A stretch of DNA of 64,000 nt from Phycisphaerales bacterium (lineage in GTDB: Bacteria; Planctomycetota; Phycisphaerae; Phycisphaerales; SM1A02). Each line of letters starts with the position of its first letter. Position 1 is the stretch's first letter. This document shows positions 10,063 to 52,133 of the stretch, piece after piece. The position numbers and the translations under genes were made by a program. The notes beneath the pieces are model-generated. The model ran no database searches and was not told the origin of the DNA. It saw nothing but the letters and a program-made list of their open reading frames with translations. The stretch is taken from positions 186,001 to 250,000 of the forward strand of contig JAQWNP010000001.1 in the NCBI GenBank assembly GCA_029268515.1, read 5' to 3'.

Positions 10063-10064
10063 CA

Positions 10065-10625: not shown

Positions 10626-10698
10626 ATGGAGCTTAGCTCAGGCCTGAAAGTTTCTTGCAGACTAGTTCTCTAGCAAAGCCATCGCAGGAGTCCGTGAC

Positions 10699-26723: not shown

Positions 26724-27674
26724 CTATCCAGAATGAGAAGGCACTGAGTTAAGTCGCTGCCGCACTTCAATCAGCCTCGCGCAGATGCTAATTGCTATTT
26801 CTTCAGGCGTCTCAGCACCGATCCCTAGACCAATTGGTGAATCGATGCGATCGAGAAAGTCGCGACGAATGCCTCGCCCCTTAAGCACCTCAAGCACTTG
26901 AACGACACGTCGCTTACTACCCATCAGTCCAATGTACTGGCTTTTGACTGTGGCCAGTGCTTCGAGCGCAGCAACATCGTGTTCGTAACTACGACTCACA
27001 ATTGCTGCGTAGAGCTGACGATCAGACTGTTGACGCATAAGCGTTGCTGCGACTGATTCGCAGCACTTGATACATCCCTCAGCTAGCAAGTCATTGCCAT
27101 CAGTCATCGGTCGATCATCCTGAATCACAATCTGAAAGCCCAAAGGATGAGCCGCACGCGCGAGTGCTAAACCACAATGGCCCCCACCTATGATAAGCAA
27201 CATCGCATCAGGCAATATGTAGAAAGGATCTGCTGTTTCACTTATGAGCCGGTTTGTGCCGACCACTTGGAGTGACCACGACTGATTGTCTGGAAACTGC
27301 TGCTGTACAGACTGACCTATTTGAAGTGCTCCCAACGCCTCTTCTATAGATTCAAGTGCCGCTGGGGCGAGCAAATCCAGACGTACCTTCATCGTCCCGC
27401 CACAGATTCCATCTCGAGGCTCTTCACAAGTTCCCCGAAGATCTATCACCACTTCCTTCGGCCCATTTACCTTCTTCATCTGGCGAGCCGCCTCGACCAC
27501 TCTTGCTTCAGCTTGGCCACCACCAATCGTGCCTAAACACCAGTCTTCACCACAAGCCATTTGAGCACCGGCATAGCGAGGTGTCGAGCCACGGACGTCA
27601 CGCACAGTCGCCAATACAACTGAGCCTGTCTTCAAACGCCCGGATACTGCGCGAAAAAAATGTTCGCCAGTCAT
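26724..27674 (-). CDS. XdhC/CoxI-family protein (molybdenum hydroxylase maturation-like)
   Basis: A 316-residue XdhC-type protein. The N-terminal XdhC domain has VRDVRGSTPRYAGAQM and the GTIGGGQAEARVVE motif; the C-terminal Rossmann domain has LLIIGGGHCGLALARAA followed by GLMGSKRRV and PIGLGIGAETPEEIA. XdhC inserts sulfurated molybdenum cofactor into xanthine dehydrogenase-type enzymes. No such hydroxylase gene is in this window, though moaA for cofactor synthesis is at 62.5 kb. Its start overlaps the stop of a glycosyltransferase (27671-27674), making it the last gene of a glycan operon, an odd context. Its stop codon abuts the tmRNA 3' end. Confidence 0.92.
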   Translation of the reverse strand: MTGEHFFRAVSGRLKTGSVVLATVRDVRGSTPRYAGAQMACGEDWCLGTIGGGQAEARVVEAARQMKKVNGPKEVVIDLRGTCEEPRDGICGGTMKVRLDLLAPAALESIEEALGALQIGQSVQQQFPDNQSWSLQVVGTNRLISETADPFYILPDAMLLIIGGGHCGLALARAAHPLGFQIVIQDDRPMTDGNDLLAEGCIKCCESVAATLMRQQSDRQLYAAIVSRSYEHDVAALEALATVKSQYIGLMGSKRRVVQVLEVLKGRGIRRDFLDRIDSPIGLGIGAETPEEIAISICARLIEVRQRLNSVPSHSG

Positions 27675-28789
27675 CGTAATTCACTTTCAGAAACCTGATT
27701 CCAGCACTCCCAGAATGTCTGGCTTGGATCTGAATAAACGCGAAGCATTGCAGCTGCAATTTTCTTTGGATCATGCCATTTCTCAACAAATCGCCGTGAC
27801 TCTTGTCCTGCTTTTCGTAGCCCTTCTACATCTCGGAGATTTGCACGCAATGTCGCCAAGAGATTTTCTGGGTTTACCTGAATCAACGGCAACTCATTTC
27901 GCATTTGTTCTGGAATATACTCCAGATCTTCTTGTCTTATATAGCACATGACAGGCTTACCCATTGCCATCATCTCGACTGCAAATGCCCCGTACCATCC
28001 AACCCGCAGTTGATCAATAACTAAGTCTGCTTGCTTATATAACTCCATTGCTTGCTGGTGAGGAATGCCCTCGATAAACAGCCATTCGAGATCAAACTCA
28101 CCTTCAAGAGCACTCGCTGCCTCTTCGATAACTTTGGTCCCTTTAACCGCGCGATTTGTTGGTGCGTGCAGAATCTTCAACTTCGCTTTTTTCTCTGAGG
28201 GAACCACTTTTACGACATCAGGATTGACTGCAGCGTATGGCACAAATTCGGCCTGAGGGACCACATGCAAGAGATCCGGATTCAGGCAGAACACTCGATG
28301 CGCTGATCTGGACACATAGCTAATATTATTCGCCTTGCTCGCATCATCACGAGGATGACATAAGCCCTCGCCTTGCTGCTGACCACAACAAGATAACGAA
28401 AAGTTTTTCTGGCAATAACCAACCTGCCTCGCATCACACCCCTGATATGTCATCACCACTGTCTTACCCGCTGCGCGCAGTAACGGAAGATCAATACCAT
28501 GAGATCCGAGTCGAGGCAAAAAGCTCTGTCCAAAATTAAAATGAAACACATCGTGACGAGATATTGATTTAAGTCCGAATAGGACCCGTTTAGTCAAACG
28601 GTTCCATCGATTCGTTTGCCCAAGATTCAGATCAATATCAACTGGATATCCCAACCACGATCGTTGTAATACTGCAAGCATACTCTGTGCACCGAGTGCT
28701 TTCTCTGCTGCAACAAGACCGCTCGGATGTCCGCCGACATCAGTAGGCGCGTGTAAAACCCGAATTCCATGCGAGCGTTCTTCATTCAT
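27671..28789 (-). CDS. GT-B glycosyltransferase with N-terminal Cys cluster
   Basis: A 372-residue GT4-like glycosyltransferase. The C-terminal half shows the GT-B signature: ILHAPTNRAVKGT, then a helix EQQADL-type segment and AFAVEMMAMGKPVMCY, where the conserved Glu binds the nucleotide sugar. The N-terminal half has HAPTDVGGHPSGL. Five cysteines (118, 126, 134, 135, 144) lie in a small loop at the domain's centre, a feature shared with the paralogue at 29680. It belongs to the leftward glycan operon and overlaps the epimerase upstream by eight bases. Donor and acceptor unknown. Confidence 0.85.
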   Translation of the reverse strand: MNEERSHGIRVLHAPTDVGGHPSGLVAAEKALGAQSMLAVLQRSWLGYPVDIDLNLGQTNRWNRLTKRVLFGLKSISRHDVFHFNFGQSFLPRLGSHGIDLPLLRAAGKTVVMTYQGCDARQVGYCQKNFSLSCCGQQQGEGLCHPRDDASKANNISYVSRSAHRVFCLNPDLLHVVPQAEFVPYAAVNPDVVKVVPSEKKAKLKILHAPTNRAVKGTKVIEEAASALEGEFDLEWLFIEGIPHQQAMELYKQADLVIDQLRVGWYGAFAVEMMAMGKPVMCYIRQEDLEYIPEQMRNELPLIQVNPENLLATLRANLRDVEGLRKAGQESRRFVEKWHDPKKIAAAMLRVYSDPSQTFWECWNQVSESELR

Positions 28790-29666
28790 AGCTATTCACG
28801 GTCTCTTGCAACGCCTTTGACAGAGAAGTAAACGAAATGTCAACAAGAGAGCAGAGACGCTTTACATCCGCTATTAGATCAAATGGCCGTGTCGCCTCAG
28901 CCAATTCAAAAATAGGCTCAATACCAAGGGCCTGGCCAATACCCATTCCTATTTCACGAATACTTACACCATTTGGACCACCGACATTAATGACATTATC
29001 TCTAATCGTTCCACTCAACATGCCACCAATCAACGCTTCTAATCCAATCAGCAGATCGTTAATATAGATCAGTGAGACAACAAGCCCCCCCTCATCTTCA
29101 ATATTGGCTGGATGACGCTGCAAAGTGATCGCTTGCTGTTTTTTGATACGACCTGCCAAACCCGGAACCAGCATATTTTCTTGACCTGGGCCAAACGCGC
29201 CGAAAATTCGTATGGTCAGCGTCTGCATCTCACCAGCAATCGCACCCACGACATCTTCACCCATCACCTTACTAAGTGCATATGCATTGTCACGACGAAG
29301 TGGTGTCTGCTCATTCATGGCAGCAAAACTATCTGTATATACGTTACCTGTTGAAGCATAAACAAACAGGCGGGCACCCGACTTCTTCGCTGCAGCTGCT
29401 ACTCGAGCCGCACCGACAACATTCACGCCAAATAGATTATCTGCCTGTTCTGGAAACGATCGGTAATGTGGGGATTGTGATAAATAGACAACCACCTCAG
29501 TTCCAGGTGCGATCACAATACCATCGTTACAAACATCAATCGGCAGGACACCCGTACGTTCGCAAGGATGAATATCGTATCCAATGACATCATGCCCCTG
29601 TTCTTTCAAGCGCTTCAGCAAGTGCCTTCCAATAAACCCACTGGCTCCAACAATTGCATACTTCAT
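28782..29666 (-). CDS. NAD-dependent epimerase/dehydratase (extended SDR)
   Basis: A 294-residue extended short-chain dehydrogenase. It has the GASGFIGRHLLKRL Rossmann glycine motif at residue 7, YASTGNVY as the Ser/Thr segment, and YALSKVMGE carrying the catalytic Tyr-x-x-x-Lys. Members epimerise, dehydrate or reduce nucleotide sugars. It overlaps the next glycosyltransferase by eight bases and follows another by 13, so it probably makes a nucleotide sugar for those enzymes. A second epimerase of different length lies at the head of the locus. Confidence 0.9.
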   Translation of the reverse strand: MKYAIVGASGFIGRHLLKRLKEQGHDVIGYDIHPCERTGVLPIDVCNDGIVIAPGTEVVVYLSQSPHYRSFPEQADNLFGVNVVGAARVAAAAKKSGARLFVYASTGNVYTDSFAAMNEQTPLRRDNAYALSKVMGEDVVGAIAGEMQTLTIRIFGAFGPGQENMLVPGLAGRIKKQQAITLQRHPANIEDEGGLVVSLIYINDLLIGLEALIGGMLSGTIRDNVINVGGPNGVSIREIGMGIGQALGIEPIFELAEATRPFDLIADVKRLCSLVDISFTSLSKALQETVNSYE

Positions 29667-29679
29667 GAAGATCTCTTAT

Positions 29680-30852
29680 CTAGGGTAGCTGACCTGCTTC
29701 AACATTGAGCTGCTTGTAGGCCCGGTGCAAACGTGCGGCAAAGTGCACTGGCGTATGGTGTTGTTCAATATACTTTCGCCCAGCTGCACCAAGCTGATGA
29801 ACGCGCATTCTGTTATTGGCAAGATCCCGAAGGGTGTCTTCCAGCTGATCAGGATTCGCAGACAAGATGGGACAAGCTTCAGAATCGAGTAGATATCGCT
29901 CTGGATCTCGAATGTAACAAATAACAGGTTTCCCTAAGGCCATCCCCTCTTGAGCGGTATAACCATGAAAACCAATTAGACATTGATCAAAGAGAACGTC
30001 GGCCTGTTGATACAACTTCAACGCCTCTTCATTCGATAGGTTTTCAATAAGCTGTAACTCAATCAACACGCCCTCTTGCTGTAATCTTTCCACCGCCGAC
30101 ATCAGAAAGCGAGTTCCCTTATAGGCGCGGTTATTCGGAGCATGAACTACACACAACGCAGTAGTAGAGTCCGCGCTCGGTACGTGCGGCTTGTATTTAT
30201 TACCACTTTCTACATCGAGTTCTACCGGCCAATAAAATATATCGTTAATACTGCCTGGCGTGTAGTGAATCATATCACCCATTGAAAACACAGCAGTTGT
30301 ATTATTCCTTATTCGCTCTGCATATCTGTCACCTGTTTCCTTATTACAAATACAAAACGATCCTGGCTGGGGACACTCCATACAACAGTTATATTGCCCG
30401 AGCGATTCGGTGCGCTCACGAGAACGAACATCGCCTCCATATGCCCAACAGAATACTTCTTTCTTAATCTTTTTCAGGAGCTCAAGCTCATCCCAGTTAA
30501 ACGTGAATGGCTCTGGCGATACAAGAATGCCACGATCACAGTAAAAGTGGAACCGATCAAATTTCCAGATCGCCCATAACAACACACCGTATGGACTAAG
30601 CCTCCCAATGATAGGCAAGCGCCTCCATTTGGCTAAGTCATAGGTAAACGCACCACGAATGTGATCATGTTCAAAAACCAGCGATCGTGCATCAATTCCC
30701 AGCAAGCACTCAGCCCGTGCATTAATACCCATATTCAACACTGGATGCCCGACCCAAAGACTGCGAAGAACTCGCTTCTTTTTGCGACGTGTTCGAAAAC
30801 ACCCCAAGGTTCGAATGACCATCATAAGCAAAACGTGAATGAGCTTTGTCAT
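29680..30852 (-). CDS. GT-B glycosyltransferase with Cys cluster, paralogue
   Basis: A 390-residue paralogue of the 27671-28789 glycosyltransferase: VVHAPNNRAYKGT, a helix EEALKLYQQADVLFDQ and YTAQEGMALGKPVICYI correspond block by block. A basic, membrane-proximal N-terminus (FRTRRKKKRVLR) suggests association with the membrane. The Cys cluster (156, 157, 160, 167, 169) lies after WAYGGDVRSRE. The two genes flank the epimerase gene. The pair probably adds successive or related sugars. Confidence 0.85.
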   Translation of the reverse strand: MTKLIHVLLMMVIRTLGCFRTRRKKKRVLRSLWVGHPVLNMGINARAECLLGIDARSLVFEHDHIRGAFTYDLAKWRRLPIIGRLSPYGVLLWAIWKFDRFHFYCDRGILVSPEPFTFNWDELELLKKIKKEVFCWAYGGDVRSRERTESLGQYNCCMECPQPGSFCICNKETGDRYAERIRNNTTAVFSMGDMIHYTPGSINDIFYWPVELDVESGNKYKPHVPSADSTTALCVVHAPNNRAYKGTRFLMSAVERLQQEGVLIELQLIENLSNEEALKLYQQADVLFDQCLIGFHGYTAQEGMALGKPVICYIRDPERYLLDSEACPILSANPDQLEDTLRDLANNRMRVHQLGAAGRKYIEQHHTPVHFAARLHRAYKQLNVEAGQLP

Positions 30853-30859
30853 GATGTAC

Positions 30860-32977
30860 TCAGACTAACGTGTTTGTGAGAGCCGTTACGGCAGAGCCAC
30901 CCATCACACGAGCAATCTCATTATTGGAATGGTACCTTTGATACCAACGCTTACCAGCCTTACATAATTCCTGAGTATACTCTGGGTCCTGATAAAGACG
31001 TCTAAGATGATCAACTGCTTCTTCAGGTGTACTTGTATTCAGAATTGGCGGCAGCTCTGGAAAACACCATCTATGCCGATCCTCATCGAGCCTAAGCAGG
31101 ACAGGACGCCCATGAAGTAGTGCTTTAGGGGTCAGACTGCCGAATGCCCCAAGGTAAAACTGATCTGCCACAACATCGGATGCCAAGATATATTCAATCA
31201 TCCCATAATTGGGAACTGGCGCAATCCATTTCACTCGATCACTAATACCACACTCTTCAAGAAGCTCTTTGGTTGCATCAACTGTGAGGCCCCATTCAAC
31301 AAAGATAGCCGACGCCTTTGGACAACATTCATGGACAAAGCGGGCGAATCCGCGAATGAGGATATCATTGCCCTTTTCCCAGCTTGGATGACGGGCTTCT
31401 TCCCAATGCTGGCGAGCAGGATGAAAAACAATAAAGTCTGTATCGAGCTCCTCACAAAGCGAGGCTCGCAACTGAGAAGCTGAGGCATCTACCTGCAAGT
31501 CTTCATTAATGGGGTGTGGAACAAAACGATACTTATCCAGCTTCAACTTATGAACTGCATCAATATTGTCACAGTTCGTAATAAGTGACATATCAGCACT
31601 TCGATAAGTCAAGGCACAGAGGCGACCTTGCTTCGTTTTCTCAAATGGAATACTACGAATTGTTCCGTGTTCAAATGCTAAATATGGACGCTTCTCACAA
31701 AGCAATGGAAGAATTCCGTCAGTGGCATAACCGATAACTACGTCGTAGTAAGCTAATACCTCAGACCACTTTTCTATTACTGAAGCGTAAGCAATAATAT
31801 CATTACTGCTAATCCGACTTTCTTCCTCTGGAAACATTTCATCCTGAGCCTTCGCAAGCTTCTCTGCCAAGATATTGATCCTATGAATAATAGATGGCTT
31901 GGATTCTTGCTCTTCTGGAAATGAGAACCCCTCTGTTAGTTTAGATTCTGATGGAAACATAACAGGTGGCAAAGATTCTAACTTTGTTGAAACAGATTCA
32001 ATAATCTGCCAAAACCGTCGCAGGGGCATAAACATCAAGACGATGAGCGACATAACCACCATAGGAATTCCTAGACAGATCTGTGTCACCCGTGACTGCA
32101 ACCAATACCAGTCAAGCCACCGCATAACTCGCGACTTGGTGTTCTGGATAACTTTGTCACCACCACTCTTCTCCAGGGTGCGGAACATGCCATGTTGCAC
32201 TTTAACAACTGTTGCTCGACCACTATCACTAGCCCTGTAGCAAATCTCTTTGACTAAGTTCCTTTTTCCAGAACTCACGAGAACGAAATACCGACCTGCA
32301 TTTCGCATTCCATACTTCGTTTTTCTTATAACTTTCCTGAGCGTGTAAAGTGACAATCTTCCAGACTGCAACACCCACACTTTGGCTCGAAGTCGACGTT
32401 GATCATTTCGAAAGACCAATCTTGCTAATGCTCGGATAGGGCGAAATCGTCTTGTCTCTTCACTTGAACCAGAAACTTTTCCAGACCAATATCCAACAAG
32501 GTTCGCCCAGAGACTCTCTGCTTTCAGCGTATTACCAGCCTGCTTCGCCAGAAGATATTCCAAACAAGTCTGATGTGGCCCCTGAACAAACCATCTTGGA
32601 CGTTCAAACCCTGTAAGATCAAGCTCATGCCATTGCGGGGCAAAATGATCAATGTCACTCACAACAATTTGCAACTCTTCCCACTCGGGACATCCCATGA
32701 TGTGGTAGTAGTCATAGCAAATAACATCACATTCAAATCCACGCCTATTTAATATCTTTGCGTTTAGATAAGCATTGTTGGCGATATTTCCAATATGCAA
32801 TACGCGGGGAGCTCGCCCCTCAGCTTCCCGAAACTCCGCAAGCCACTGATCCAATTCTTCATCATTCAAGTGATTAACGATCGCACTTGCCCCATGAGCT
32901 GGACCAATCTCTACTGCTCCGGAACTTGTACCATTCTGTTTCTCACTCGAATGGCGAGAAGAGAAATCAGGAATCAT
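30860..32977 (-). CDS. Large glycosyltransferase-like protein with internal hydrophobic segment
   Basis: About 705 residues from the ATG at 32977; a TTG at 33022, which overlaps the upstream gene, is the alternative. The N-terminal part has a Rossmann-like VLHIGNIANNAYLNAKIL followed by RGFECDVICYDY. A hydrophobic stretch (residues about 298-317, VTQICLGIPMVVMSLIVLMF) and a charged linker interrupt the protein. The C-terminal part has IGYATDGILPLLCEKRPYLAFEHGTIRSIPFE and a late GT-B-like block EWGLTVDATKELLEECG. It therefore looks like a GT-B enzyme with a large insertion. I cannot assign a substrate. It overlaps or abuts the deacetylase-like gene upstream and is 7 bases from the next glycosyltransferase. 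Confidence 0.7.
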   Translation of the reverse strand: MIPDFSSRHSSEKQNGTSSGAVEIGPAHGASAIVNHLNDEELDQWLAEFREAEGRAPRVLHIGNIANNAYLNAKILNRRGFECDVICYDYYHIMGCPEWEELQIVVSDIDHFAPQWHELDLTGFERPRWFVQGPHQTCLEYLLAKQAGNTLKAESLWANLVGYWSGKVSGSSEETRRFRPIRALARLVFRNDQRRLRAKVWVLQSGRLSLYTLRKVIRKTKYGMRNAGRYFVLVSSGKRNLVKEICYRASDSGRATVVKVQHGMFRTLEKSGGDKVIQNTKSRVMRWLDWYWLQSRVTQICLGIPMVVMSLIVLMFMPLRRFWQIIESVSTKLESLPPVMFPSESKLTEGFSFPEEQESKPSIIHRINILAEKLAKAQDEMFPEEESRISSNDIIAYASVIEKWSEVLAYYDVVIGYATDGILPLLCEKRPYLAFEHGTIRSIPFEKTKQGRLCALTYRSADMSLITNCDNIDAVHKLKLDKYRFVPHPINEDLQVDASASQLRASLCEELDTDFIVFHPARQHWEEARHPSWEKGNDILIRGFARFVHECCPKASAIFVEWGLTVDATKELLEECGISDRVKWIAPVPNYGMIEYILASDVVADQFYLGAFGSLTPKALLHGRPVLLRLDEDRHRWCFPELPPILNTSTPEEAVDHLRRLYQDPEYTQELCKAGKRWYQRYHSNNEIARVMGGSAVTALTNTLV

Positions 32978-32990
32978 ATTCGCTTGCTCT

Positions 32991-34061
32991 TCAGCCACGG
33001 AAGTACTCCGGGTGAAGCACAACTAACACCTCAGCACCCAACTCTGCAGACATAACCACATCTAACATTTCAGCAAGTGATACATCCCAGACAAACGTGT
33101 TGCCTCCACCGATTACCCATCGATCCTGTCCTATGGCCCAAACCTGCAGATCCACATCCCAATCATGACACGGGTTGTTCGTTAAGTAGGTACGCATCCA
33201 GTCTTCATTACGAATCGAGGCCCCCGCAGAATGAGTCGCAAATTCAGTGGCTGCCGCTCTATCAACCTCTTCTACTACTTTGGCATAAGTACCTTCGTAG
33301 AACAAACCAAAAGACTTCTCATCAACAAGGCCTACTGGCAGCTGCTGTCCTTCTGCATCACAAACTTCGCGATTCCAGAACACTCTATTTTTAAACACCT
33401 CAGAATTGTCCGCCCCATAAACCGAGATAGAGTTGTGACCAACTGTACCTAGAACATTAGCACCATGACTTCTAAGCCAAAATAACTCTGTCCATAAAGC
33501 TCCAATAGGATCCAGATCAGTTGTCGAAGCAACATGCATTACATCATTGTGCAAACCAATTTCACAGCCGGCAACGATCAGATTTTGAACTATTGCTGCA
33601 AGCTCAGGCGATCGCACTAGTAAATCTTTTTCATATTGGCCGTAGTAGAGTGCTGTTGGCAAAAGATAAAACGAACTTCCCACACCAACCTGCGCACAGT
33701 AGCGTGCCATACGACAAGCAGTTTGTACATCCGCATCTATATCCACACGGAGACCAACATTGACCAAGTCATTACTACGTTCAGTCTTTAACTTGCACAG
33801 TGGTTTTATATTGAGGCGATCACACTTAGCCAAAGAATCAGTCATGATTCTAAAAGTATCGAAGATACCTGTCAGATCTTTATAACAAGACGAAACTTGA
33901 TCCTGGATATTCCTTGGTTCTGGTGACTGGAGCACACGAATCAAAGCCGGCTTTGGTTCTTCAACCGGCACCTCCAGCTCAGCAGCCACTTCCTCTGGTT
34001 CAGCCACCGGCAACCCGGATGCATCCCCACCACCAAAGATTTTCTGCATTCGCCTTAACAT
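32991..34061 (-). CDS. RHDVD-type polysaccharide deacetylase-like protein
   Basis: About 356 residues from the ATG at 34061, with GAGAG ten bases ahead; a GTG at 34070 is possible. The N-terminus has a Glu/Pro-rich linker (residues about 20-40). The core resembles the NodB/CE4 fold used in LPS and capsule loci: VGLRVDIDADV for the first acidic motif, SSFYLLPTALYYGQYE, and AGCEIGLHNDV. In the first motif the usual RHDVD reads RVDIDAD, so the histidine is absent. It may deacetylate an N-acetyl sugar or be a binding relative. Followed by the large glycosyltransferase-like gene. Confidence 0.7.
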   Translation of the reverse strand: MLRRMQKIFGGGDASGLPVAEPEEVAAELEVPVEEPKPALIRVLQSPEPRNIQDQVSSCYKDLTGIFDTFRIMTDSLAKCDRLNIKPLCKLKTERSNDLVNVGLRVDIDADVQTACRMARYCAQVGVGSSFYLLPTALYYGQYEKDLLVRSPELAAIVQNLIVAGCEIGLHNDVMHVASTTDLDPIGALWTELFWLRSHGANVLGTVGHNSISVYGADNSEVFKNRVFWNREVCDAEGQQLPVGLVDEKSFGLFYEGTYAKVVEEVDRAAATEFATHSAGASIRNEDWMRTYLTNNPCHDWDVDLQVWAIGQDRWVIGGGNTFVWDVSLAEMLDVVMSAELGAEVLVVLHPEYFRG

Positions 34062-34141
34062 TGCTAACACCTCTCACAGAGGACATACCACCTATCACGA
34101 CCGTTTGAAAGCTGCATCATACCTCACCCCAGAGTCCGACT

Positions 34142-35644
34142 TCATGAATCCTTACCGCGGTTTTCAGGCACGCGAGCTATTATTCTTGTTTCACGTGGAA
34201 TCGAATCATTTCCCGTTGCAACGGTACTGATCTCAATTGAATGACATCCAAGTCTTTCAAGCGTCCGCTGAGCTCGACTAGGAGACAAGTCGTTGTAAGA
34301 ACAGCCGTGTTCTTCATTCCAAGAGTATTGATGATCTGTTAATTCGGGGAACCAGCCACGATAGCACGTCACATAGATCCAACCTTGCGACCAGCGCACC
34401 ATTGCTGCCAGATACGCATCCATATCATAACTATTGTCGATGGTTCCCTGTGAAAAGACCAGATCGAACTTTTCATCAGCATCCTCAACAATAAAATCAC
34501 AAGATCGATAATGATGTTTCTTATTAGGACGGTTTTCCTGACACCATGCAATAGCAGGATGAGCAAGATCAAAACCGACATAGCGGCGATCCGCCAAAGC
34601 ATCGCAATAACCAACACCCAAACCACATCCAAAATCTGCAACCGTTTGCAACTCAGAATGACCATCTATAAATGACAATAAGTCTTGATGAACGGCTTTT
34701 CGAGACTCATACATCCACGTATACCACTCAAGACCACCATCATGCTCTTTCCAAAACTGACCATAGTTTTTGGGCTTCCATCTACTGCGAGCACAATTGC
34801 TGTATTTAAGATCGATCATCATCTGACCTGCATGCCGATCAAACGCATCCCGCATTTCCCCTGACCACCACGGCCAGGAAGCCGCTGGCCTTGGATTTGG
34901 CGTCTGCCGATATGCGAGAGAGTTAACCCGCTGATCCATAATTTCTTGTACTTGATCCCGACCAGGGGAGTCGAGACCAAGCCATTCATACATACCTTCA
35001 ATTCCCTCTACTCCATCCCGAGCGAGATCGATGCAACGGACTCGATCACCAGTCACTGATTCCAAGCCTTTAAGGTAAACAGAATTACAGGCACTCCAAT
35101 ACCAAGCACACATGTGACTTCGCGGCATTTTTTCCCATAACTCGTACACTGGATCCCCTGGCTGTGGCCGGTTACGAGCGTAATCAGAACTATCGTCACT
35201 AATCAGCAAGTTCGCTGCCGAACTCACCGCTGCTGGCTCCAACGCTTCGGATTGCAAACCTTCCCGATAAATATTTCCAAACTTCGCGATGTGCCAATTC
35301 ATCATTGAAGTCACCACATCGCGACCATCCCGAGTCAACAGCACGAAACGACAGTTGCTTTCCTTTGCGAGCGCTGGAATAAACGGACCATAGGTCACAT
35401 TTTTTTCGCCATAATTTCCGTGTTCTGTTAACCCCTTCTTAAAACGGGGCACTAACACATCCCGCACCAATTTCATTTTATCTTTGTCACTAAGGCATCC
35501 ATCTAAAGCTGCTCTTGTTTCACGATTGAGATTGGGCATGGGCTCTGAAGCACAATGACCATTCACTGCAGTATCGAGCAATGTCGCCAAAGCTGTCGAG
35601 CCAGATCTTGCTGTACTAAGAATACAATAGGGAACGTTTGTCAT
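34142..35644 (-). CDS. Fusion of sulfotransferase and SAM methyltransferase domains
   Basis: About 500 residues from the ATG at 35644; a TTG at 35656 is possible. Residues about 1-290 are a PAPS-type sulfotransferase: YCILSTARSGSTALATLL is the 5' phosphosulfate loop and CRFVLLTRDGRDVVTSMM the 3'-phosphate motif. Residues about 310-500 are a class I methyltransferase: TVADFGCGLGVGYCDAL is motif I, RYVGFDLAHPAIAWC follows, and FDLVFSQGTIDNSYD is the later acidic strand. It may sulfate and methylate one glycan unit, or supply two separate activities. Part of the leftward operon between deacetylase-like genes. Confidence 0.88.
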   Translation of the reverse strand: MTNVPYCILSTARSGSTALATLLDTAVNGHCASEPMPNLNRETRAALDGCLSDKDKMKLVRDVLVPRFKKGLTEHGNYGEKNVTYGPFIPALAKESNCRFVLLTRDGRDVVTSMMNWHIAKFGNIYREGLQSEALEPAAVSSAANLLISDDSSDYARNRPQPGDPVYELWEKMPRSHMCAWYWSACNSVYLKGLESVTGDRVRCIDLARDGVEGIEGMYEWLGLDSPGRDQVQEIMDQRVNSLAYRQTPNPRPAASWPWWSGEMRDAFDRHAGQMMIDLKYSNCARSRWKPKNYGQFWKEHDGGLEWYTWMYESRKAVHQDLLSFIDGHSELQTVADFGCGLGVGYCDALADRRYVGFDLAHPAIAWCQENRPNKKHHYRSCDFIVEDADEKFDLVFSQGTIDNSYDMDAYLAAMVRWSQGWIYVTCYRGWFPELTDHQYSWNEEHGCSYNDLSPSRAQRTLERLGCHSIEISTVATGNDSIPRETRIIARVPENRGKDS

Positions 35645-35665
35645 CGTTTTACTCAACGTTCTAAT

Positions 35666-37906: not shown

Positions 37907-37970
37907 AATAGAAAGTCTTCTTGTATTCTGAATCCCAGATTAACCTCTGGAATAATGGACGCGCAAAACA

Positions 37971-38867: not shown

Positions 38868-39032
38868 AAACTCAGCTCCATCAAATATCTATTTACAGCA
38901 CTACAGTCTATCAGATTGACCCTATTGGGCCCTTCTGACAGCATCCATATACCATCTCATACCAATGACTCAGGAGTTCGCTATACTGCCGCCCACTTGG
39001 ATCCCATGGGGTCTCTATAATCGAGGTTCCAC

Positions 39033-40229: not shown

Positions 40230-40232
40230 TAC

Positions 40233-42254: not shown

Positions 42255-42275
42255 CGGATACGAGGCAGGCTCTCA

Positions 42276-44273: not shown

Positions 44274-47023
44274 AATTCCGACTTTCGTATAACCACTTCT
44301 AAACTATCGCCATGAACTGCAATCAGCGGCCCATTACTCGGGTCGAAACGTTTACCATCCGATTCAGCATAAAGTTCCACGATTTCATCACGAGGAAGAC
44401 CAGTGAAAGCGAAGAATCCGGAACCATCAAAGAACGCATCATCACGAACAATACGCTCTCCATCTGGTCCATTATAACTTAGCACTAATCTCAACTCCGA
44501 AAAGGCCCCTTCAATTCGGCCACCAAACACACAAGTCGTCGGCACAGCAGGCCTCAGTGAGCCAGACCGAAGAAACTCAACAGCATCTAAATCAACTTCA
44601 CATGCTGTATCACTCTCTAGAATAAAACTCATCGATGCAATAGGCGAGACAGGCAAAGGTCCACCTGGCACCGATCCACTTCGCCACTTGAGATCCACCA
44701 GCGGAATGACGCGCCGTTCCCATTCCCCAGACTCGCATTGTGATGTGAGATAAGAGGCGTTGACATCTGCCACTGATTGATGAGTGACACTGTCCCCAAA
44801 ATAAAATCGACCGCCATCTTTTGTCTCAATAAGAACCCCACAACGCGTCTGAGATGCCTGCCGCCTGACTGAATATGCAAAGTGCTGGCAACCAGCTGGA
44901 TCGATATCTTGTGGGAACCAGTTGATTCTCCCTGATCCAGGCTTCGATAATTCAACATGAGCATATCCAGAACCTCTTGCTGCATCAGTCTTGTCTGTCA
45001 GCCACTGAACCGCAACACACTCTTCCTGGCTTAACATCAACTCATTGGCAAAAGGCACCTCATCGAGAAGTACATGCGAAACATGCCCCCCAACAATTGT
45101 CACAGATTGACGCAACTCACCATCAGCTGGATTACGCACGAGGTTTTCTATTGGTTTATTATCTAAACAGACCTGTGTTTTGGAATTGTCATCAACGTAA
45201 AAGGTAATTCCATACAGATCTTCTACACTTATTGGCATGGTCTTGCCTGTGTGTTTATTTAGCCACGACTTAATTTGTATCGTGTCGCCACCAATTCGGG
45301 ATACATGTTTTGGAAGCACCTGAGCGATGAGCGAGTATTGATACAATCGAGAGGCTGAAACAAAGCCAAGCCGCTTATTTTCGGGAACCGAACCTGAAAT
45401 ATTCATCACACGATCTTGCAGCGCACTCATGACTGAATCATCGAAGTAAGGCTCCTGTGGGTTTCGCGTATTACCTAAATGGGTATAAAACGGCCACGCC
45501 TGATCAGTCTCTTGGGCTGAACGCTCAAGCAATCTTCGCATTCGCTCTGAAAACGTGTCCGTGCCCATATTATTTTCAAGCTTTTTGTCTAACACTGTGT
45601 CATTGGGCAACTCCGGAGCCATGCGCCTTGCACCAAATAAACGAGTTCTATCTCGACCTTGTGTCAGAGGCGTGATCTCAAATATATGAGCTCGCTCACC
45701 AGGCTCTCCGGACTGACCCGATGGGTTAATAAACTTAATGCCAAATGTACGAACTAAGTAATGAAGAAGATATGCAATGGAATCAGGGTGGTCTCCAAGT
45801 GCTGAAAATTTTAGATCCTCTTTACAGCCACTGATATAGAGCGACGGGAGTGGTGATTGCCCATATCGGGATGACACCGCCTCGTGAATTTCTCTCTCTA
45901 CTCTTGTGTTAACGATGTACTTTGACGCATGGTCTGTAACGAGATTCGTTCCAACATTCCATTCTGTACGAAGTGACTCAAGAAGGACGTGGCTTTTCAA
46001 TGCATCTGTATTAAAAAGATAGAGCGCTTTTACTTCAGTAGCTGGCTTTGCCGCAGAATCACGAACTATTATTCGTTCAATAGAAGAAAGAAATAAATTG
46101 TGCTCGCGACTTCGATCAAGTGGAACATCAAAATAGGCCACTTTCCAGCGAGAGCGGCCTATTTTATACTGCTCTCTTTGCTTGCTATTTGAACGTTGAT
46201 AGGCCAGCTCTGTTCCATCTGGCCTGACAACAACCAGTGTGGCACTATCGGATAGCTCAAGACCTTTTGTACAGACAGCAACTGTACACACTGGCACCCG
46301 AAATGACTTGAACTCTAACTGTCCAAACCGCGATCTTTCTAACTCTGCTGGAACCGCAATACACCACTCGCCTACACCGGGCGATGACACATCGTTCAAC
46401 ACCATTACACGTGCACCAAAGGCTGATAGCGAATGAAAATGATCGAGGTTACCCCGATGAAATTCACGAACTAACTCAATAAAACCGACTTTGCGATCGT
46501 CATCGGCGTGCGGGTACGAATGAGAAATAGGCGCACACCCATCACAATCGAAAAATGCCAGCGGCTCTGTTCGCACGCGTCGCGAAGCACGCTGATGTAA
46601 TCGAAACGAGTCTCCAAAATCAAGGCCATGCCGACGAATGAGCTGAGTGTGATACGCATTTACATCAAATGGTTTTGCCGCATCCAAATCACTAACTAAA
46701 CCAACAATGTTGGCGGCAGGATATGGGAGCAATCGCATGCCCGCGCTTTCTAAAGCAGCGAGACATTGCTTTTTCTTCTTTTGAGACAATACATTACGAA
46801 GGGACCACGGACAAGCATCGAGGCCTCGAAAGAGCCCCCAAGATCCAATGACTGGATGGCGAAGAAGGTAACGCATGCGATTAATGCGGTCATGACCTAT
46901 GGCCTGTAAGAGGCTTCGAAAAAGCCCCCAAGATCCAATGATTGGATGGCGTAGAAAATACCGCATTCGATTAACGCGGTCATAACCTATCGTCCGCCCA
47001 ACGAAATGCTTTAACCACTGCAT
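44270..47023 (-). CDS. Large protein of a paired family (917 aa) with N-terminal duplication, unknown function
   Basis: Not recognised as a named family. Residues 12-71 contain two copies of a 30-residue unit with NRMRYFLRHPIIGSWGLFR. The next 150 residues resemble the NodB-like start of the 746-residue protein: PYPAANIVGLVSDLDAAK (D112, D114), LDFGDSFRLH and GNLDHFHSLSAFG. The core shares INPSGQSGEP, FYTHLGN, LQDRVMNISGSVPENKR and IKSWLNKHTGK with that protein. The C-terminal 250 residues look beta-rich (carbohydrate-binding or Ig-like) with a final segment FFAFTGLPRDEIVELYAE like carboxypeptidase regulatory domains. Location unknown; no clear signal. Confidence 0.6.
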   Translation of the reverse strand: MQWLKHFVGRTIGYDRVNRMRYFLRHPIIGSWGLFRSLLQAIGHDRINRMRYLLRHPVIGSWGLFRGLDACPWSLRNVLSQKKKKQCLAALESAGMRLLPYPAANIVGLVSDLDAAKPFDVNAYHTQLIRRHGLDFGDSFRLHQRASRRVRTEPLAFFDCDGCAPISHSYPHADDDRKVGFIELVREFHRGNLDHFHSLSAFGARVMVLNDVSSPGVGEWCIAVPAELERSRFGQLEFKSFRVPVCTVAVCTKGLELSDSATLVVVRPDGTELAYQRSNSKQREQYKIGRSRWKVAYFDVPLDRSREHNLFLSSIERIIVRDSAAKPATEVKALYLFNTDALKSHVLLESLRTEWNVGTNLVTDHASKYIVNTRVEREIHEAVSSRYGQSPLPSLYISGCKEDLKFSALGDHPDSIAYLLHYLVRTFGIKFINPSGQSGEPGERAHIFEITPLTQGRDRTRLFGARRMAPELPNDTVLDKKLENNMGTDTFSERMRRLLERSAQETDQAWPFYTHLGNTRNPQEPYFDDSVMSALQDRVMNISGSVPENKRLGFVSASRLYQYSLIAQVLPKHVSRIGGDTIQIKSWLNKHTGKTMPISVEDLYGITFYVDDNSKTQVCLDNKPIENLVRNPADGELRQSVTIVGGHVSHVLLDEVPFANELMLSQEECVAVQWLTDKTDAARGSGYAHVELSKPGSGRINWFPQDIDPAGCQHFAYSVRRQASQTRCGVLIETKDGGRFYFGDSVTHQSVADVNASYLTSQCESGEWERRVIPLVDLKWRSGSVPGGPLPVSPIASMSFILESDTACEVDLDAVEFLRSGSLRPAVPTTCVFGGRIEGAFSELRLVLSYNGPDGERIVRDDAFFDGSGFFAFTGLPRDEIVELYAESDGKRFDPSNGPLIAVHGDSLEVVIRKSEL
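46821..46990 (-). repeat. 90-bp direct repeat coding for a duplicated 30-residue unit
   Basis: Copies at about 46821-46900 and 46911-46990 have a 90-base period. They encode IGYDRVNRMRYFLRHPIIG and IGHDRINRMRYLLRHPVIG, so third positions and a few residues have diverged. The duplication keeps frame at the start of the 917-residue protein. The basic and aromatic unit may bind membrane or nucleic acid or act as a docking segment. Confidence 0.9.
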
Positions 47024-47080
47024 TGATCTAAACCATTCCTAAAATGACTCATAGCGACTAATGAGAGCGGCACGAAAACG

Positions 47081-48940
47081 CTAGAGATCATCATCATCAT
47101 CATCGCCAAGCAACTGCAAACTACTCGCCTCTAATTTCATCTCTTTTCGCTTAGCCGTACGCTCCTTCTTCATCGAATCCCACCAATGGTGGTCACCCAT
47201 ACCCAAGACATCACCATTGATGGCCCAGATAACTTGCTCTGCAGCAACCTCCTCTCCATGAGGATTAGATGATGACACGAACAAAACAATTTTTTGATCC
47301 AGAATAGCAATCAGCTTGTCAGCATACGCTGCGTCAATATCTTCAAAAATATCCCACTCAACCAACGCTACCGATCCAGGCGTGTTACTCAAGCCAAGGA
47401 CATAGACAGCCACTTTTAGATTGGGCGACAGTGTTGCCCAAACACTCTGAGTTAATACCGTGTCACGGCCTTGCGGAAGACCTTCAATCTCGTTCTTTAA
47501 ATCTGCGTTAGTAATGAACTCTTCAACTTCTTTTGTCACTTGGTCTGAAGGCGTCTTACTACCAGTCAAGATACCTTGAAGTGGCAAAATTGGGCATGCC
47601 TGACCACTAAAGATAAAGCTGCCTGTATACCAAACAAGTGGATCCACTTCTGTCGCTGCAACGAGTGACTCTGTGACCAATCCCAATGAAAGACGGGCAG
47701 GTGATATGTTGATTGAGAACAGCGTTGGTTTCCCAGGTCGCAAGGTGAGACAATCAACACCTCCATACTTTTTGGAACCCGGCAGCTTCATATCGATACT
47801 GCTCACCTCAGTAGAAGTGTATTGCTTGCCACTGAGCTGAACTAACGGAAAGTAAATGCTGCGATAAAAACGAATACGAGGATAAGAATCCGTCATACTT
47901 GCCACGACGGCAGCGAGGCTTGTGAATGATCGACCCAACTGAGCCAAGGCCAGAATGTAAATGAGTATGGAACCCCATGAATCGGTAGATTCAATCGCTG
48001 CAGAGCCCAGGATAATGAGAATCACAACAATCATTAGAGGGCGAAGTAATGATGTCACCAAAGCCGAACGCTGAGATGTGAGCTGACGCCTGTCATAATA
48101 ATCCCAGTATTCCTTAATGCGCTGATCTGTATAGTAACTCTCGGCAATTTCATTTTTCCTTAGATCTGGGGTTACACCCCACTCTTCACCGATTGCGATG
48201 TGCTGCTTGATAGCTCCAGCGATGCCTTCACGGGCCCGCCCGTAATACTCTGTTGATGCTTGCTGTGCACGACCACCTAAAAAGTAGAGCACTGGAGCGC
48301 TTACAAGGAATAACGGCAATACGTAGATCGTCGCTCTGACATCTAGGAAAAAAAGAATTCCGATATAGGCGAACGCATAAAAGATCAACTGGACCGATCC
48401 CATCATCGACTCGGCGGCTTTTGCCATCAAACGAGGATCGCCTTTAATGGTTCGGCCTAGATACTTCTTGTTGAATGTAGTCTGGCCAGGTATCGGATGC
48501 CATCCTGCTATCAGCTGGAGCATTCTTGAACCGGCCCGGTATTGATACGACCGGGCGATAGCCCTCGATTGAACGGCACAGAAATAGGCAGTAATCGCAC
48601 TGAAGATCTGTAGAACCAGAACAATGATTGCCACAACCCAAAGTGAACTAAGCTCCGCACCAAGGTTCCAGCCAACCCCAGGAACGATCCAGGCCTCACC
48701 AACCTCTAATTTCTGAATGTAAATCGACAGCAATACCAGTGTGCTCGACACCGCAATCGCGCCAAGAAAACTTAAGACGCCAACCATAGTAACGCGGTAC
48801 ATTTTGCCTAAGAATGCGTCTTTACTGAGCCATATATAGGCCTCAATAAAACGGCTAATCCGACCCATGACGTGCGACCACCAGGCTGAACCTGAAGGAG
48901 ATTCACTTGCGTGGTGCTGGGCTGTATTTGCAGTGGACAT
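47081..48940 (-). CDS. ABC-exporter-like protein with degenerate nucleotide-binding domain
   Basis: About 619 residues from the ATG at 48940 (AAGGT ahead); an ATG at 48961 is also possible. Numbering here is from the upstream ATG. Residues 55-360 have six helices and coupling segments as in type I ABC exporters. Residues 390-595 align in order with an ABC ATPase, including EGLPQGRDTV before the signature, but the Walker A region (414-432) has no GxxxxGKS/T, the signature reads LSPNL, Walker B reads VALVEWDIF and the H-loop reads SSSNP. ATP hydrolysis is therefore improbable. The C-terminus ends in seven acidic/Leu residues (GDDDDDDL). It sits in the glycan operon after asnB. Confidence 0.82.
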   Translation of the reverse strand: MSTANTAQHHASESPSGSAWWSHVMGRISRFIEAYIWLSKDAFLGKMYRVTMVGVLSFLGAIAVSSTLVLLSIYIQKLEVGEAWIVPGVGWNLGAELSSLWVVAIIVLVLQIFSAITAYFCAVQSRAIARSYQYRAGSRMLQLIAGWHPIPGQTTFNKKYLGRTIKGDPRLMAKAAESMMGSVQLIFYAFAYIGILFFLDVRATIYVLPLFLVSAPVLYFLGGRAQQASTEYYGRAREGIAGAIKQHIAIGEEWGVTPDLRKNEIAESYYTDQRIKEYWDYYDRRQLTSQRSALVTSLLRPLMIVVILIILGSAAIESTDSWGSILIYILALAQLGRSFTSLAAVVASMTDSYPRIRFYRSIYFPLVQLSGKQYTSTEVSSIDMKLPGSKKYGGVDCLTLRPGKPTLFSINISPARLSLGLVTESLVAATEVDPLVWYTGSFIFSGQACPILPLQGILTGSKTPSDQVTKEVEEFITNADLKNEIEGLPQGRDTVLTQSVWATLSPNLKVAVYVLGLSNTPGSVALVEWDIFEDIDAAYADKLIAILDQKIVLFVSSSNPHGEEVAAEQVIWAINGDVLGMGDHHWWDSMKKERTAKRKEMKLEASSLQLLGDDDDDDL

Positions 48941-49076
48941 GGTTACCTTGCGGCCCTTCATATTTTTGATGATTCACTCGCCCATTTCAGCAACAAGTCA
49001 AAGCCGGGTTCGACTACTACAACTAAACAATATCAGCTTCACACATTGTCTGGGTAACTACAATGTCTAGACCGCA

Positions 49077-51125
49077 TCAGACCTGCAAACTATCGACTCG
49101 AGTCTGACTCATCTCTACGATATCATTCGCTTCAGTATCTACAAAGTGTCGCTGAATCCACTCTATGCTAACCAAAGACCAAATCAGTAGGCGATGATTT
49201 CTCTTGCCATCAAAGTGTTCGTTTAAGCATGAGCGAACAAAATCTTGATCAAACCAGGGACGTTCCAGCGTACGTTGATCAAAGAGGATGGACTTAATGT
49301 AGTCCATAGATGGGCCTCGATACCAATTTTCATCTGGCGGAGAAAACCCTTGCTTACGCTGATAAAGAAACTCACTTGGCAGGAACTTTTCCATTGCCCT
49401 ACGAAGAACATACTTACCCTCTGATGAATCCATGAATTCACCGCTACGACTAGATTCTTCGAGTTCCGCCAAACGCAACTTTTGAGATGGACGAAGTCGC
49501 CAAGCGAGCGTGTTGAGCGCATTGTCGAGAAATGGCACCCGCGTCTCTAAACTATGTGCCATTGAGATATGATCATCGGTAATCAAGAGTCCGTGCAAAA
49601 ACGTCTTAAACTCAAAGTACAGTGCTCGGTGTAGCAAGTTTTCTGAATGACTGGCTTCTTGATCCCAAGCTGGCGCGCTCGCCATAACTTCGTCGAAACT
49701 ATGGCGAGGATCGCCCAAATGCCTTTGAAGATCAGATGAAAACAGACGCGACAACTCCGCTTGTGGCAAGAGTCGATGCCATGAGTCAAACACCGAATTA
49801 TCGAAGTCATCTATTGAACCACCACCAAATGCGGCGCGGTAACGCCATGGATAACCAGCGAATAATTCGTCTCCACCAGTCCCAGCAAGGCACACCTTTA
49901 CGAATTTACTTGCCAATTTTGCAACATACCAATTCTGATGACACATCCCAACACGTGGATCGTCCATATGCCATGTAATTTTATCCATGGCTGCAGGCAT
50001 ATCGCCTGCATGAAGAACAACGTCATAGTGCTCAGTTTGCAAAAGATATGACAAGCGCTCTGCCAACCGTCGCTCATCAAAGCCCTGCTCAATTCCATCG
50101 ACATTTGTCAAATCAAATCCGCCGGTGAAGGTGTGCAATCGACTGATCGATGTTCCCGCGACAGCCACAATGGAACCAGAGTCCATACCTCCTGATAAAT
50201 AGGACCCCACAGGCACATCACTAATTAATTGTCTTTGTACCGCACCACGGAAGCCCATAGAAACATCATTCACGACGGACTCTTGCCCCTGCGATTCTTT
50301 TCCAAATGCGGCAACTGCATCAATGTACTTTCTGGGCTCTCCTACAACACCATTACGAGGATCAACCCGAAGATGCTCACCAGGCATCAATAACTGGACG
50401 TTCTCCCAAATCGTCTGCCGCTTGTACACATTTTGAAATGTCATGTATTCAACAAGTGACGAAGCATTCAATGCAGGTTTCACAATACCACTTGCGAAAA
50501 TGGCCTTGATCTCACTCGCAAAGAGAAAGAATCCGTCTGAGATTGCGTAATAAACTGGTTTCACACCAAAACGATCGCGAACCAGATCAAGTCGATGCTC
50601 AACTGAGTCATATATTCCAAACGCAAACATGCCGTCAAGTTGCTCGAGACAAGGTGGGCCACACTCGTTCCAGAGCTGCAAGATGACCTCTGTATCGGTT
50701 CCCGTGCGGAATCGATGGTCACGCTGCTCAAGCTCATCACGAATTGCCTGAAAGTTGTACGCCTCTCCGTTATGCACAATCCAGTGACGGCGATCGGGTG
50801 TCGCCATTGGCTGATGCCCGTAGGCGCTGAGGTCAAGAATAGAAAGACGCCGATGACCAAGTGCTACCTGAAAATCACTTTCAGCCATTTCCCTACGCGA
50901 GTAAGAGCCACCAAAGACTGGAAGGTGCTCATTGAGGTGGGCAAATTTCTCATCTGTATAGGCCGTCGAAGTTGCACCGCGATGTTTGGTACCACGCCCT
51001 GGATCAAAAAACGCATAGCCCGCATCATCCGGGCCTCGGTGCGCAATGGTGTCACACATCCGTTTGATCCATACAGGATCAACGGGGCGGCCTGTCAAAC
51101 TAACGATACCGGCGATACCACACAT
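49077..51125 (-). CDS. asnB: AsnB-type glutamine-hydrolysing amidotransferase
   Basis: A 682-residue asparagine synthetase-type protein. Cys2 (MCGIAG) is the glutaminase nucleophile, with AHRGPDDAGY, LGHRRLSILD and VHNGEAYNF completing the N-terminal domain. An insertion of about 40 residues separates the first two blocks (residues 45-85). The synthetase part has SYLSGGMDSGSIVA, the ATP-pyrophosphate loop, and GTGGDELFAGYPWRYRA. In glycan loci such enzymes often amidate uronic acids rather than make asparagine. It begins three bases after the epimerase gene. Whether it makes asparagine or modifies a glycan is undecided; the context favours the latter. Confidence 0.9.
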   Translation of the reverse strand: MCGIAGIVSLTGRPVDPVWIKRMCDTIAHRGPDDAGYAFFDPGRGTKHRGATSTAYTDEKFAHLNEHLPVFGGSYSRREMAESDFQVALGHRRLSILDLSAYGHQPMATPDRRHWIVHNGEAYNFQAIRDELEQRDHRFRTGTDTEVILQLWNECGPPCLEQLDGMFAFGIYDSVEHRLDLVRDRFGVKPVYYAISDGFFLFASEIKAIFASGIVKPALNASSLVEYMTFQNVYKRQTIWENVQLLMPGEHLRVDPRNGVVGEPRKYIDAVAAFGKESQGQESVVNDVSMGFRGAVQRQLISDVPVGSYLSGGMDSGSIVAVAGTSISRLHTFTGGFDLTNVDGIEQGFDERRLAERLSYLLQTEHYDVVLHAGDMPAAMDKITWHMDDPRVGMCHQNWYVAKLASKFVKVCLAGTGGDELFAGYPWRYRAAFGGGSIDDFDNSVFDSWHRLLPQAELSRLFSSDLQRHLGDPRHSFDEVMASAPAWDQEASHSENLLHRALYFEFKTFLHGLLITDDHISMAHSLETRVPFLDNALNTLAWRLRPSQKLRLAELEESSRSGEFMDSSEGKYVLRRAMEKFLPSEFLYQRKQGFSPPDENWYRGPSMDYIKSILFDQRTLERPWFDQDFVRSCLNEHFDGKRNHRLLIWSLVSIEWIQRHFVDTEANDIVEMSQTRVDSLQV

Positions 51126-51128
51126 GCG

Positions 51129-52133
51129 TCAGGATGCCAGCACACCGCCAACGGCAGCCTGCTTCCCACGAAGATCCCCTTCATGACTGCGCCGCCATTC
51201 AATAAGGCTCTGCATGCCATGGTCCAAATCAATGGTCCAATTGAATCCAAGATCCTTGGAAGCCTTCTTGGGACAACCAATTCTGTTTTGCACGAACGTG
51301 AGTCCGGCATCTTCATATTGAATAGATAGATTGCTTTCTGTCAGCGACAGAAGCAATTCAGTAAGGTCTTTGATTGTGGTACCGATTCCACGACCCACGT
51401 TGTAGCATTCTCCAGAAGCATCTGCTTGCATGCCAAGCACATTGGAGCGAGCCACATCCGTGACGTGAATAAAGTCGTATTGCTGCGATCCATCACCGAA
51501 TACGATTGGACTTTGCCCATTCTCAATTCGATCAAGAATCTTGTGCATCACTGCAATATAAGCGCCCTTGTAATCCTGCCGTGGACCATAGACATTCATA
51601 TAACGCAAGCCAATCCAATCAAGGTTGTAGCGAGCACCAAGACTTTTGAAGAAGTGTTCACCAGCTATCTTTGAAGCGCCATAGAAGGTGAAGTTGTTGT
51701 ACGCATGCTCCTCAGTCATTGGTGTCTCAATCGCATCCCCATAAACCGAGGCAGATGATGAGTACACCACGCGTTCGACACCTGTTTCGATGGCAGCCAT
51801 CGCCACATTAAAGGTGCCTCGAACATTCACATCGAAGGCTGTATCGGGGTATTCATGACATTGCAGAATCCAGAGAGCCGCAAGGTGAAACACACCATGA
51901 CAACCTTCCATGGCCTTGCAGAGAATATCACGCTGAAGAATGTCTCCACCGTGAGGAAAGATGGAAACCCGTGGATCTTTTAGAGCCTCACGCAGGTTAT
52001 CAAGAGAGCCCCTAAAAAAATTATCATAAATGACAATCTCACCAACATCCGTCGCCAGAAGCTCATCTACGACATGACTTCCAATGAGGCCTGCACCACC
52101 AATAACGAGTACTTTTTTCCCACTCAATTCCAC
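51129..52133 (-). CDS. NAD-dependent nucleotide-sugar epimerase (extended SDR)
   Basis: A 334-residue UDP-sugar epimerase-type protein. GGAGLIGSHVVDELL at residue 12 binds NAD, YSSSASVYGD is the Ser segment, FYGASKIAGE the catalytic Tyr-x-x-x-Lys, and RYMNVYGPRQDYKGAY the sugar-binding block. The GTG start at 52133 is supported by AAGGAAG seven bases ahead. It is the first gene of the leftward glycan operon. Specificity (4-epimerase, 4,6-dehydratase or decarboxylase type) was not resolved; the galE gene at the right edge is a separate enzyme. Confidence 0.9.
   Translation of the reverse strand: MELSGKKVLVIGGAGLIGSHVVDELLATDVGEIVIYDNFFRGSLDNLREALKDPRVSIFPHGGDILQRDILCKAMEGCHGVFHLAALWILQCHEYPDTAFDVNVRGTFNVAMAAIETGVERVVYSSSASVYGDAIETPMTEEHAYNNFTFYGASKIAGEHFFKSLGARYNLDWIGLRYMNVYGPRQDYKGAYIAVMHKILDRIENGQSPIVFGDGSQQYDFIHVTDVARSNVLGMQADASGECYNVGRGIGTTIKDLTELLLSLTESNLSIQYEDAGLTFVQNRIGCPKKASKDLGFNWTIDLDHGMQSLIEWRRSHEGDLRGKQAAVGGVLAS

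Follow-up and report, generated by a model that had tools for sequence, protein, structure and literature searches.

A descendant of the ABC exporters that has neither a Walker A motif nor an LSGGQ signature stands at the core of a 15-gene island in a Phycisphaerales bacterium, and it belongs to a conserved protein family that is kept by natural selection and is not a decayed gene. The island (27671-52133) was found in a window of 64,000 nucleotides, the whole stretch that we analyzed (contig JAQWNP010000001.1, positions 186,001 to 250,000). The host genome (label G000) is 3.2 Mb in size and 99.5% complete, and the related loci belong to Phycisphaerae, a class of Planctomycetota. The pseudo-ABC protein is called ABCd here, the three "deacetylase-like" proteins are DAC1-3, and ST, EPI, and GT stand for sulfotransferase, epimerase, and glycosyltransferase. 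On balance, we favor the reading that the product of the locus is a heavily modified surface glycan, which would be synthesized in the cytoplasm and handled at the membrane by ABCd.

The gene layout of the window divides the island into three blocks (Table 1). Pfam gives names to both epimerases, AsnB, three sulfotransferases (one of them a methyltransferase fusion), and three weak GT-B glycosyltransferases; layout and Pfam thus agree with the original prediction of two leftward operons and a small rightward pair with enzymes of these types. GIANT1, GIANT2, DAC1-3, and ABCd have no Pfam match and no NCBIfam equivalog. The TTG start of GT3 is doubtful because of the overlap with DAC1, and DAC1 and GT3 form one fused protein in genome G005 (L026:15059-17671). 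Orthologs of GT1 adjoin EPI2/GT2 in L028, L066-L068, and L029. At the left edge of the island, a tmRNA (26378-26724, plus strand; tag ANPQYALAA) lies directly beside an XdhC-like gene. Integration of the island at this tmRNA was considered and rejected, as the window contains no second tmRNA 3' end and XdhC lies between. Just outside the island is an ABC-2 type membrane protein (PF12698; 24020-26304, plus strand), preceded by a 320-aa ORF that is possibly its ATPase, and farther away an NfeD protein is followed by a flotillin-like FloA (8368-11784, plus strand).

Table 1. Blocks, genes, and motif positions of the island, in window coordinates.
Feature	Position	Strand	Evidence or remark
Block 1, leftward, 8 genes	27671..38867	-	
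GT1, GT-B glycosyltransferase	27671..28789	-	Glycos_transf_1, E 0.0018
EPI2, SDR epimerase/dehydratase	28782..29666	-	Epimerase, 4e-27
GT2, GT-B glycosyltransferase	29680..30852	-	Glycos_transf_1, 1e-5
GT3, large glycosyltransferase-like protein, one predicted TM	30860..33022	-	Glycos_transf_1, 0.008, C end
DAC1, RHD/D-motif protein, distant CE4-like	32991..34070	-	No Pfam match; hhalign vs CE4 prob 60, E 8.7e-5
ST_MT, sulfotransferase fused to SAM methyltransferase	34142..35656	-	Sulfotransfer_3, 7.5e-4; Methyltransf_11, 2.4e-7
GIANT2, nameless family, GIANT1 paralog	35666..37906	-	33% identity over 334 residues of GIANT1
ST2, sulfotransferase	37971..38867	-	Sulfotransfer_3, 2e-10
Block 2, rightward, 2 genes	39033..42254	+	
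ST3, sulfotransferase, C-terminal membrane anchor	39033..40229	+	Sulfotransfer_1, 1.7e-6; residues 365-398 hydrophobic
DAC2, RHD/D-motif protein with extra C-terminal half	40233..42254	+	68% identical ortholog in G001
Block 3, leftward, 5 genes	42276..52133	-	
DAC3, DAC2 paralog	42276..44273	-	30% identity to DAC2
GIANT1, large protein, C-terminal half beta-rich	44270..47023	-	Orthologs 59% in G001, 30% in G092
ABCd, pseudo-ABC exporter: TMD, motif-less NBD, acidic tail	47081..48961	-	hhalign, Foldseek, tree
Lost Walker A position, SINISPARLSL (ABCd residues 416-426)	47684..47716	-	Aligned with VGASGSGKSTL of G000's own exporter
Lost ABC signature position, LSPNL replacing LSGGQ	47417..47431	-	Alignment with G000's own exporter
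ABCd acidic C-tail, DDDDDD	47087..47104	-	
AsnB-type amidotransferase, Cys2 and SGGMDS intact	49077..51125	-	Asn_synthase, 1.2e-84
EPI1, nucleotide-sugar epimerase	51129..52133	-	Epimerase, 5.6e-50

ABCd has the make-up of a type IV ABC exporter, a six-TM domain followed by an NBD fold, according to both hhalign and Foldseek. The hhalign comparison with the two intact exporters of G000 covers the last TM helices and the whole NBD (prob 95.3%, E 2.2e-8), and in it PARLSL of ABCd, for which many relatives have LNRYTL, lies opposite the exporter GSGKSTL, and LSPNL opposite LSGGQ. Foldseek with a low-confidence AF2 model (pLDDT 54, pTM 0.44) returned only ABC exporters among its top 50 PDB matches (E 3e-9, prob 1.0); the TM-scores were low (0.20-0.28), so that the overall conformation of ABCd cannot be claimed. 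Five hydrophobic segments were counted, compared with 5-7 in control exporters, and a PDB sequence search with the ABCd profile gave nothing meaningful. The Walker A motif GxxGxGK[ST] occurs in 0/20 ABCd copies and in 17/17 canonical controls, and the LSGGQ signature in 0/20 and 15/17, respectively.

The 20 copies come from 19 planctomycete genomes of six families. In a tree with 17 canonical proteins all of them fall on one side of a branch with a support of 100/100, while the inner order is unsure because three rows have long branches. The class search left a clean gap, full-length matches (E < 1e-34) lacking Walker A and LSGGQ and the readable weak ones having Walker A; matches with E above about 1e-9 were excluded for this reason, and the incomplete locus L112 was left out. 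For the three pairs with the least saturation (dS 0.8-1.0), dN/dS was 0.10-0.17. The C-tail is acidic in most copies: the last 20 residues of the complete members hold a median of 9 D/E, vs 3 in the 17 canonical exporters. The ABCd copies of G005 and G047 have lost part of the NBD to a deletion, which, with the lost motifs, indicates that the protein is retained although its NBD is not needed as an engine. The suggestion that the degenerate ABC protein may matter has thus gained strength, and we found no description of this family in the open-licence literature.

The neighbors of ABCd are usually sulfotransferases and glycosyltransferases and sometimes a priming transferase. In family f50, which belongs to a different class, ABCd occurs with four sulfotransferases and GTs; in G373 it is found with a DAC-sulfotransferase fusion, GTs, and a PF02397 priming transferase, in G378 and G787 with a PF02397 protein bearing a CoA_binding_3 domain, and G444 carries a Wzy_C protein. 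Such surroundings tie the ABCd family to polyprenyl-linked glycan assembly.

The other genes of the island recur as well. In G001, of the same genus, ST3-DAC2-DAC3-GIANT1-ABCd and GIANT2-ST2 were found with 53-69% identity on contigs too short to show the whole locus. The order in G005 is EPI1-AsnB-ABCd-ST3-DAC2-GIANT-...-ST_MT-(DAC1+GT3 fused)-...-EPI2-GT1, and most of the gene set is also present in G047 and G015. Three further named MAGs (PLA8, 8_bin.42, and CYA N2) carry ST3-DAC2 adjoining ST_MT-DAC1-GT3-MT-GT2-EPI2-GT1, arranged as in the window, with ST3-DAC3 at a separate place. EPI1-AsnB-ABCd is a stand-alone trio in G092, G095, and G792, flanked by housekeeping genes in G092, where the neighborhood was checked, and a separate contig of G092 and of G095 carries GIANT1-ST2. 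Two units are therefore conserved, EPI1-AsnB-ABCd and ST3-DAC2 beside ST_MT-DAC1-GT3-GT2-EPI2-GT1. Across the genomes with the trio or the locus, identity is 80-82% for EPI1, which adjoins AsnB in six genomes, 61-68% for AsnB (G005, G047, G015, G092, and G095), and 17-26% for ABCd. Among 397 genomes of the class, 10 have ABCd, 11 have DAC, and 7 have both (Fisher p 1e-10, uncorrected for relatedness).

We also noted that the RHKP01 contigs L064 and L066, titled Cyanobacteria bacterium CYA N2, carry Phycisphaerae-like loci, and the label of this MAG is probably wrong. In Candidatus Tritonobacter lacicola, of another PVC phylum, EPI1 (61%) and AsnB (42%) adjoin a DAC/methyltransferase protein (L072:5736-11518). 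The DAC family is also present in a proteobacterial glycan locus: in an Accumulibacter MAG (L071:6332-15755), three DAC-like proteins are encoded consecutively, not far from a gene for a Wzt-like ATPase, and one of the three is fused to a TPR-containing methyltransferase.

As to the sugar chemistry, AsnB contains GATase II and Asn synthase domains (Pfam 1e-84 and 3e-43) and begins with MCGIAG, including Cys2, as expected of an AsnB-type enzyme. Its score against TIGR03108 (eps_aminotran_1) was 410.9 bits (E 1e-122), well below the cutoff of 816.9, so we do not claim WbpS-type membership. Among the nearest solved relatives of EPI1 are 6dnt and 6wj9/6wjb, which are described no further than as NAD-dependent epimerases. 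ST2 and ST3 score above the Sulfotransfer_1/3 gathering score and ST_MT below it. Porphyromonas gingivalis needs the AsnB-type WbpS to obtain the uronamide version of a sugar on which a putative CE4 deacetylase also acts (PMC7468200). Of the amidation and methylation functions proposed earlier, the AsnB and methyltransferase domains are present, and the functions would follow from membership in these families.

The "deacetylase-like" label goes back to an RHD-x-D motif and a His; in DAC3, R92-H-D94-x-D96-x-D98, H158, and H196 are invariant. Against the CE4 proteins of G000 itself, hhalign gave a weak match (prob 60%, E 8.7e-5), with RHDID on TFDD and EIGLHND on ELGNHSYSH and the second motif-2 His off the canonical spacing. 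PF01522 (CE4/NodB) has no match in DAC1-3, a search of the genome with it misses them, and PDB sequence searches with the DAC profile returned nothing meaningful. The hhalign match weakly suggests that DAC1-3 are deacetylases. The extra C-terminal half of DAC2 looks SGNH-like by eye only. GIANT1 and GIANT2 have no Pfam, NCBIfam, or PDB match, and we make no fold claim from the poor AF2 model of GIANT1 (pLDDT 47). We do not call the giants deacetylases, because profile comparisons of the giants with DAC and of their relatives with CE4 show no relation. A core in two parts is common to them and to 430-aa proteins that are widespread in the class (L160-L174, e.g., L168:622-1923; motif CSDLDET...SGHIDCLHSYGDL...VWVDH...YTHLGK), which occur in many of its Planctomycetota and have no Pfam or PDB match.

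Pfam and hydrophobicity searches of the locus proteins found no Wzx, Wzy, Wzm, or priming transferase, and this absence is confirmed for the locus by ABCd being its only polytopic membrane protein. The original statement of this absence applies to the locus and not to the genome. Elsewhere, G000 encodes two priming transferases, Wzm-like ABC-2 proteins (C10:188208 and C10:117264), two intact ABC exporters, and, near a glycosyltransferase family 9 (heptosyltransferase-family) gene, a WaaL/Wzy_C (O-antigen ligase) protein (G000:C16:295740-297107; L184:7741-9108), which is a candidate ligase for the locus glycan. The locus glycan may therefore take a conventional route, and the Wzm-like proteins or the two intact exporters could do the export. 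PF01943 has no match in G000, where MurJ is the only Wzx-type match, so this genome may lack a Wzx for the locus glycan while the Wzm route stays open. G001 shows the same pattern, with no Wzx seen other than MurJ; Wzx is present elsewhere in G015, G092, G095, and G792.

Recurrence bears directly on whether unrelated modification enzymes have merely come together by chance on an island of low GC, as its GC content of 45-49%, compared with about 50% around, might suggest. Four other genomes of the family have the genes together, and the three further MAGs have them as conserved blocks; because they recur in other genera with partly kept order, chance grouping is excluded, and we regard this explanation as practically negligible. 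The locus is a conserved functional gene unit. The search of other planctomycete genomes that the original prediction called for has thus borne out one composite glycan locus, whose genes, contrary to the finding that was to speak against it, do co-occur in other Phycisphaerae. Scarcely more credible is the view of an ordinary polysaccharide cluster in which the ABC-like gene is decaying into a pseudogene: the catalytic motifs have all gone and some copies are shorter, but the reading frames are open in 19 genomes of six families, and the copies share one clade, a dN/dS of about 0.1, and an acidic tail.

ABCd might also pair with an intact ABC exporter, such as that on C3 or C12, and form the inactive half of a heterodimer. 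Heterodimers of this type with degenerate sites are common (PMC7756269) and two intact exporters are at hand in G000, but no partner gene adjoins ABCd in the loci examined and the loss of both Walker A and signature exceeds the degenerate sites described, so we consider this improbable. A more serious contender, which we would still put short of even, is that ABCd acts only as a structural scaffold or regulator while Wzm/Wzt-type ABC-2 transporters or another exporter elsewhere perform the export. The two Wzm-like proteins of G000 speak for it, the further shortening of the NBD in G005 and G047 would be expected of a protein that is no longer an engine, and the acidic tail suits protein contacts; against it, the full TMD is retained under purifying selection and no strong Wzm-like match was found in G047 or G792.

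In the surface-glycan reading that we prefer, EPI1 and AsnB would provide an amidated (uronamide-type) nucleotide sugar, which GT1-3 would join to further sugars inside the cytoplasm; the carrier is probably a polyprenyl lipid, primed by a transferase whose gene lies outside the locus. Sulfation would be the work of ST2, ST3, and ST_MT, with cytoplasmic PAPS as donor, and methylation that of the methyltransferase; DAC1-3, possibly with the giants, may be hydrolases that trim off acyl groups ahead of sulfation or renewed acylation. ABCd would be the meeting point of the finished lipid-linked glycan, the enzymes, and the membrane. The product is probably a sulfated, amidated, lipid-linked surface glycan, as judged from the gene content. 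Against this reading, the enzymes and the product are predictions from sequence, CE4 membership is weak, and G020 has a full-length-type DAC without ABCd; the Wzm-like proteins and two intact exporters of G000 and the Wzx of G015, G092, G095, and G792 also weigh against it. Most likely, ABCd handles the lipid-linked glycan without ATP hydrolysis of its own. It may do so as a membrane scaffold for the enzymes, a plausible role that we nevertheless hold with reserve, or, more tentatively, as an ATP-independent flippase; that the family moves lipid-linked sulfated glycans without ATP hydrolysis and replaces Wzx in genomes like G000 is a rather unlikely, speculative extension.

The closest worked-out analog is the Wbp/Vim pathway for the A-LPS linking sugar in Porphyromonas/Tannerella (WbpS/AsnB, VimE, and VimA), in which an AsnB-type amidotransferase likewise goes with epimerase, deacetylase-type, and glycosyltransferase functions, and an aminosugar is amidated, deacetylated, and re-acylated (PMC7468200). 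Unlike our locus, that pathway has a wzx (porS), and neither sulfotransferases nor a pseudo-ABC protein were reported for it (PMC7468200), whereas no WbpA/B/D/E or VimA was identified in the locus. PglK and Wzk share with ABCd the ABC-exporter architecture in a glycan locus and the same proposed place in the pathway (PMC4990322). Wzk, a PglK-type flippase of lipid-linked oligosaccharides, has intact Walker A and B motifs and needs its ATPase (PMC4990322), which argues against ABCd, without either motif, as an ordinary flippase. The heterodimeric exporters TM287/288, TmrAB, CydDC, and TAP also have altered ATP-site motifs (PMC7756269) and are the top structural matches of ABCd; unlike these, which keep one active site, all ABCd copies lack Walker A and signature and have no adjacent partner gene. 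Clusters for sulfated polysaccharides such as synechan (PMC8205485) and those of Pontiella (PMC7356697) also combine GTs with several sulfotransferases, and the parts of these reports that we consulted describe no AsnB, giants, DAC family, or pseudo-ABC protein. The prediction of an undescribed system thus stands for the ABCd family and not for the whole, in view of the Wbp/Vim analog and the possible conventional route: the locus is ordinary in its general kind, and its unusual part is the conserved motif-less ABC exporter family at the core.

With its gene set, the locus provides a marker for glycans that are both sulfated and amidated, in a class of which few members have been cultured, and it adds protein families without a named domain, the giants and DAC. 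The ABCd clade, whose conservation extends across Planctomycetota and which goes with genes for sulfated glycans, points to an exporter fold kept for a non-ATP-driven role, and it is a test case for ATP-independent glycan translocation or pseudo-transporter scaffolding.
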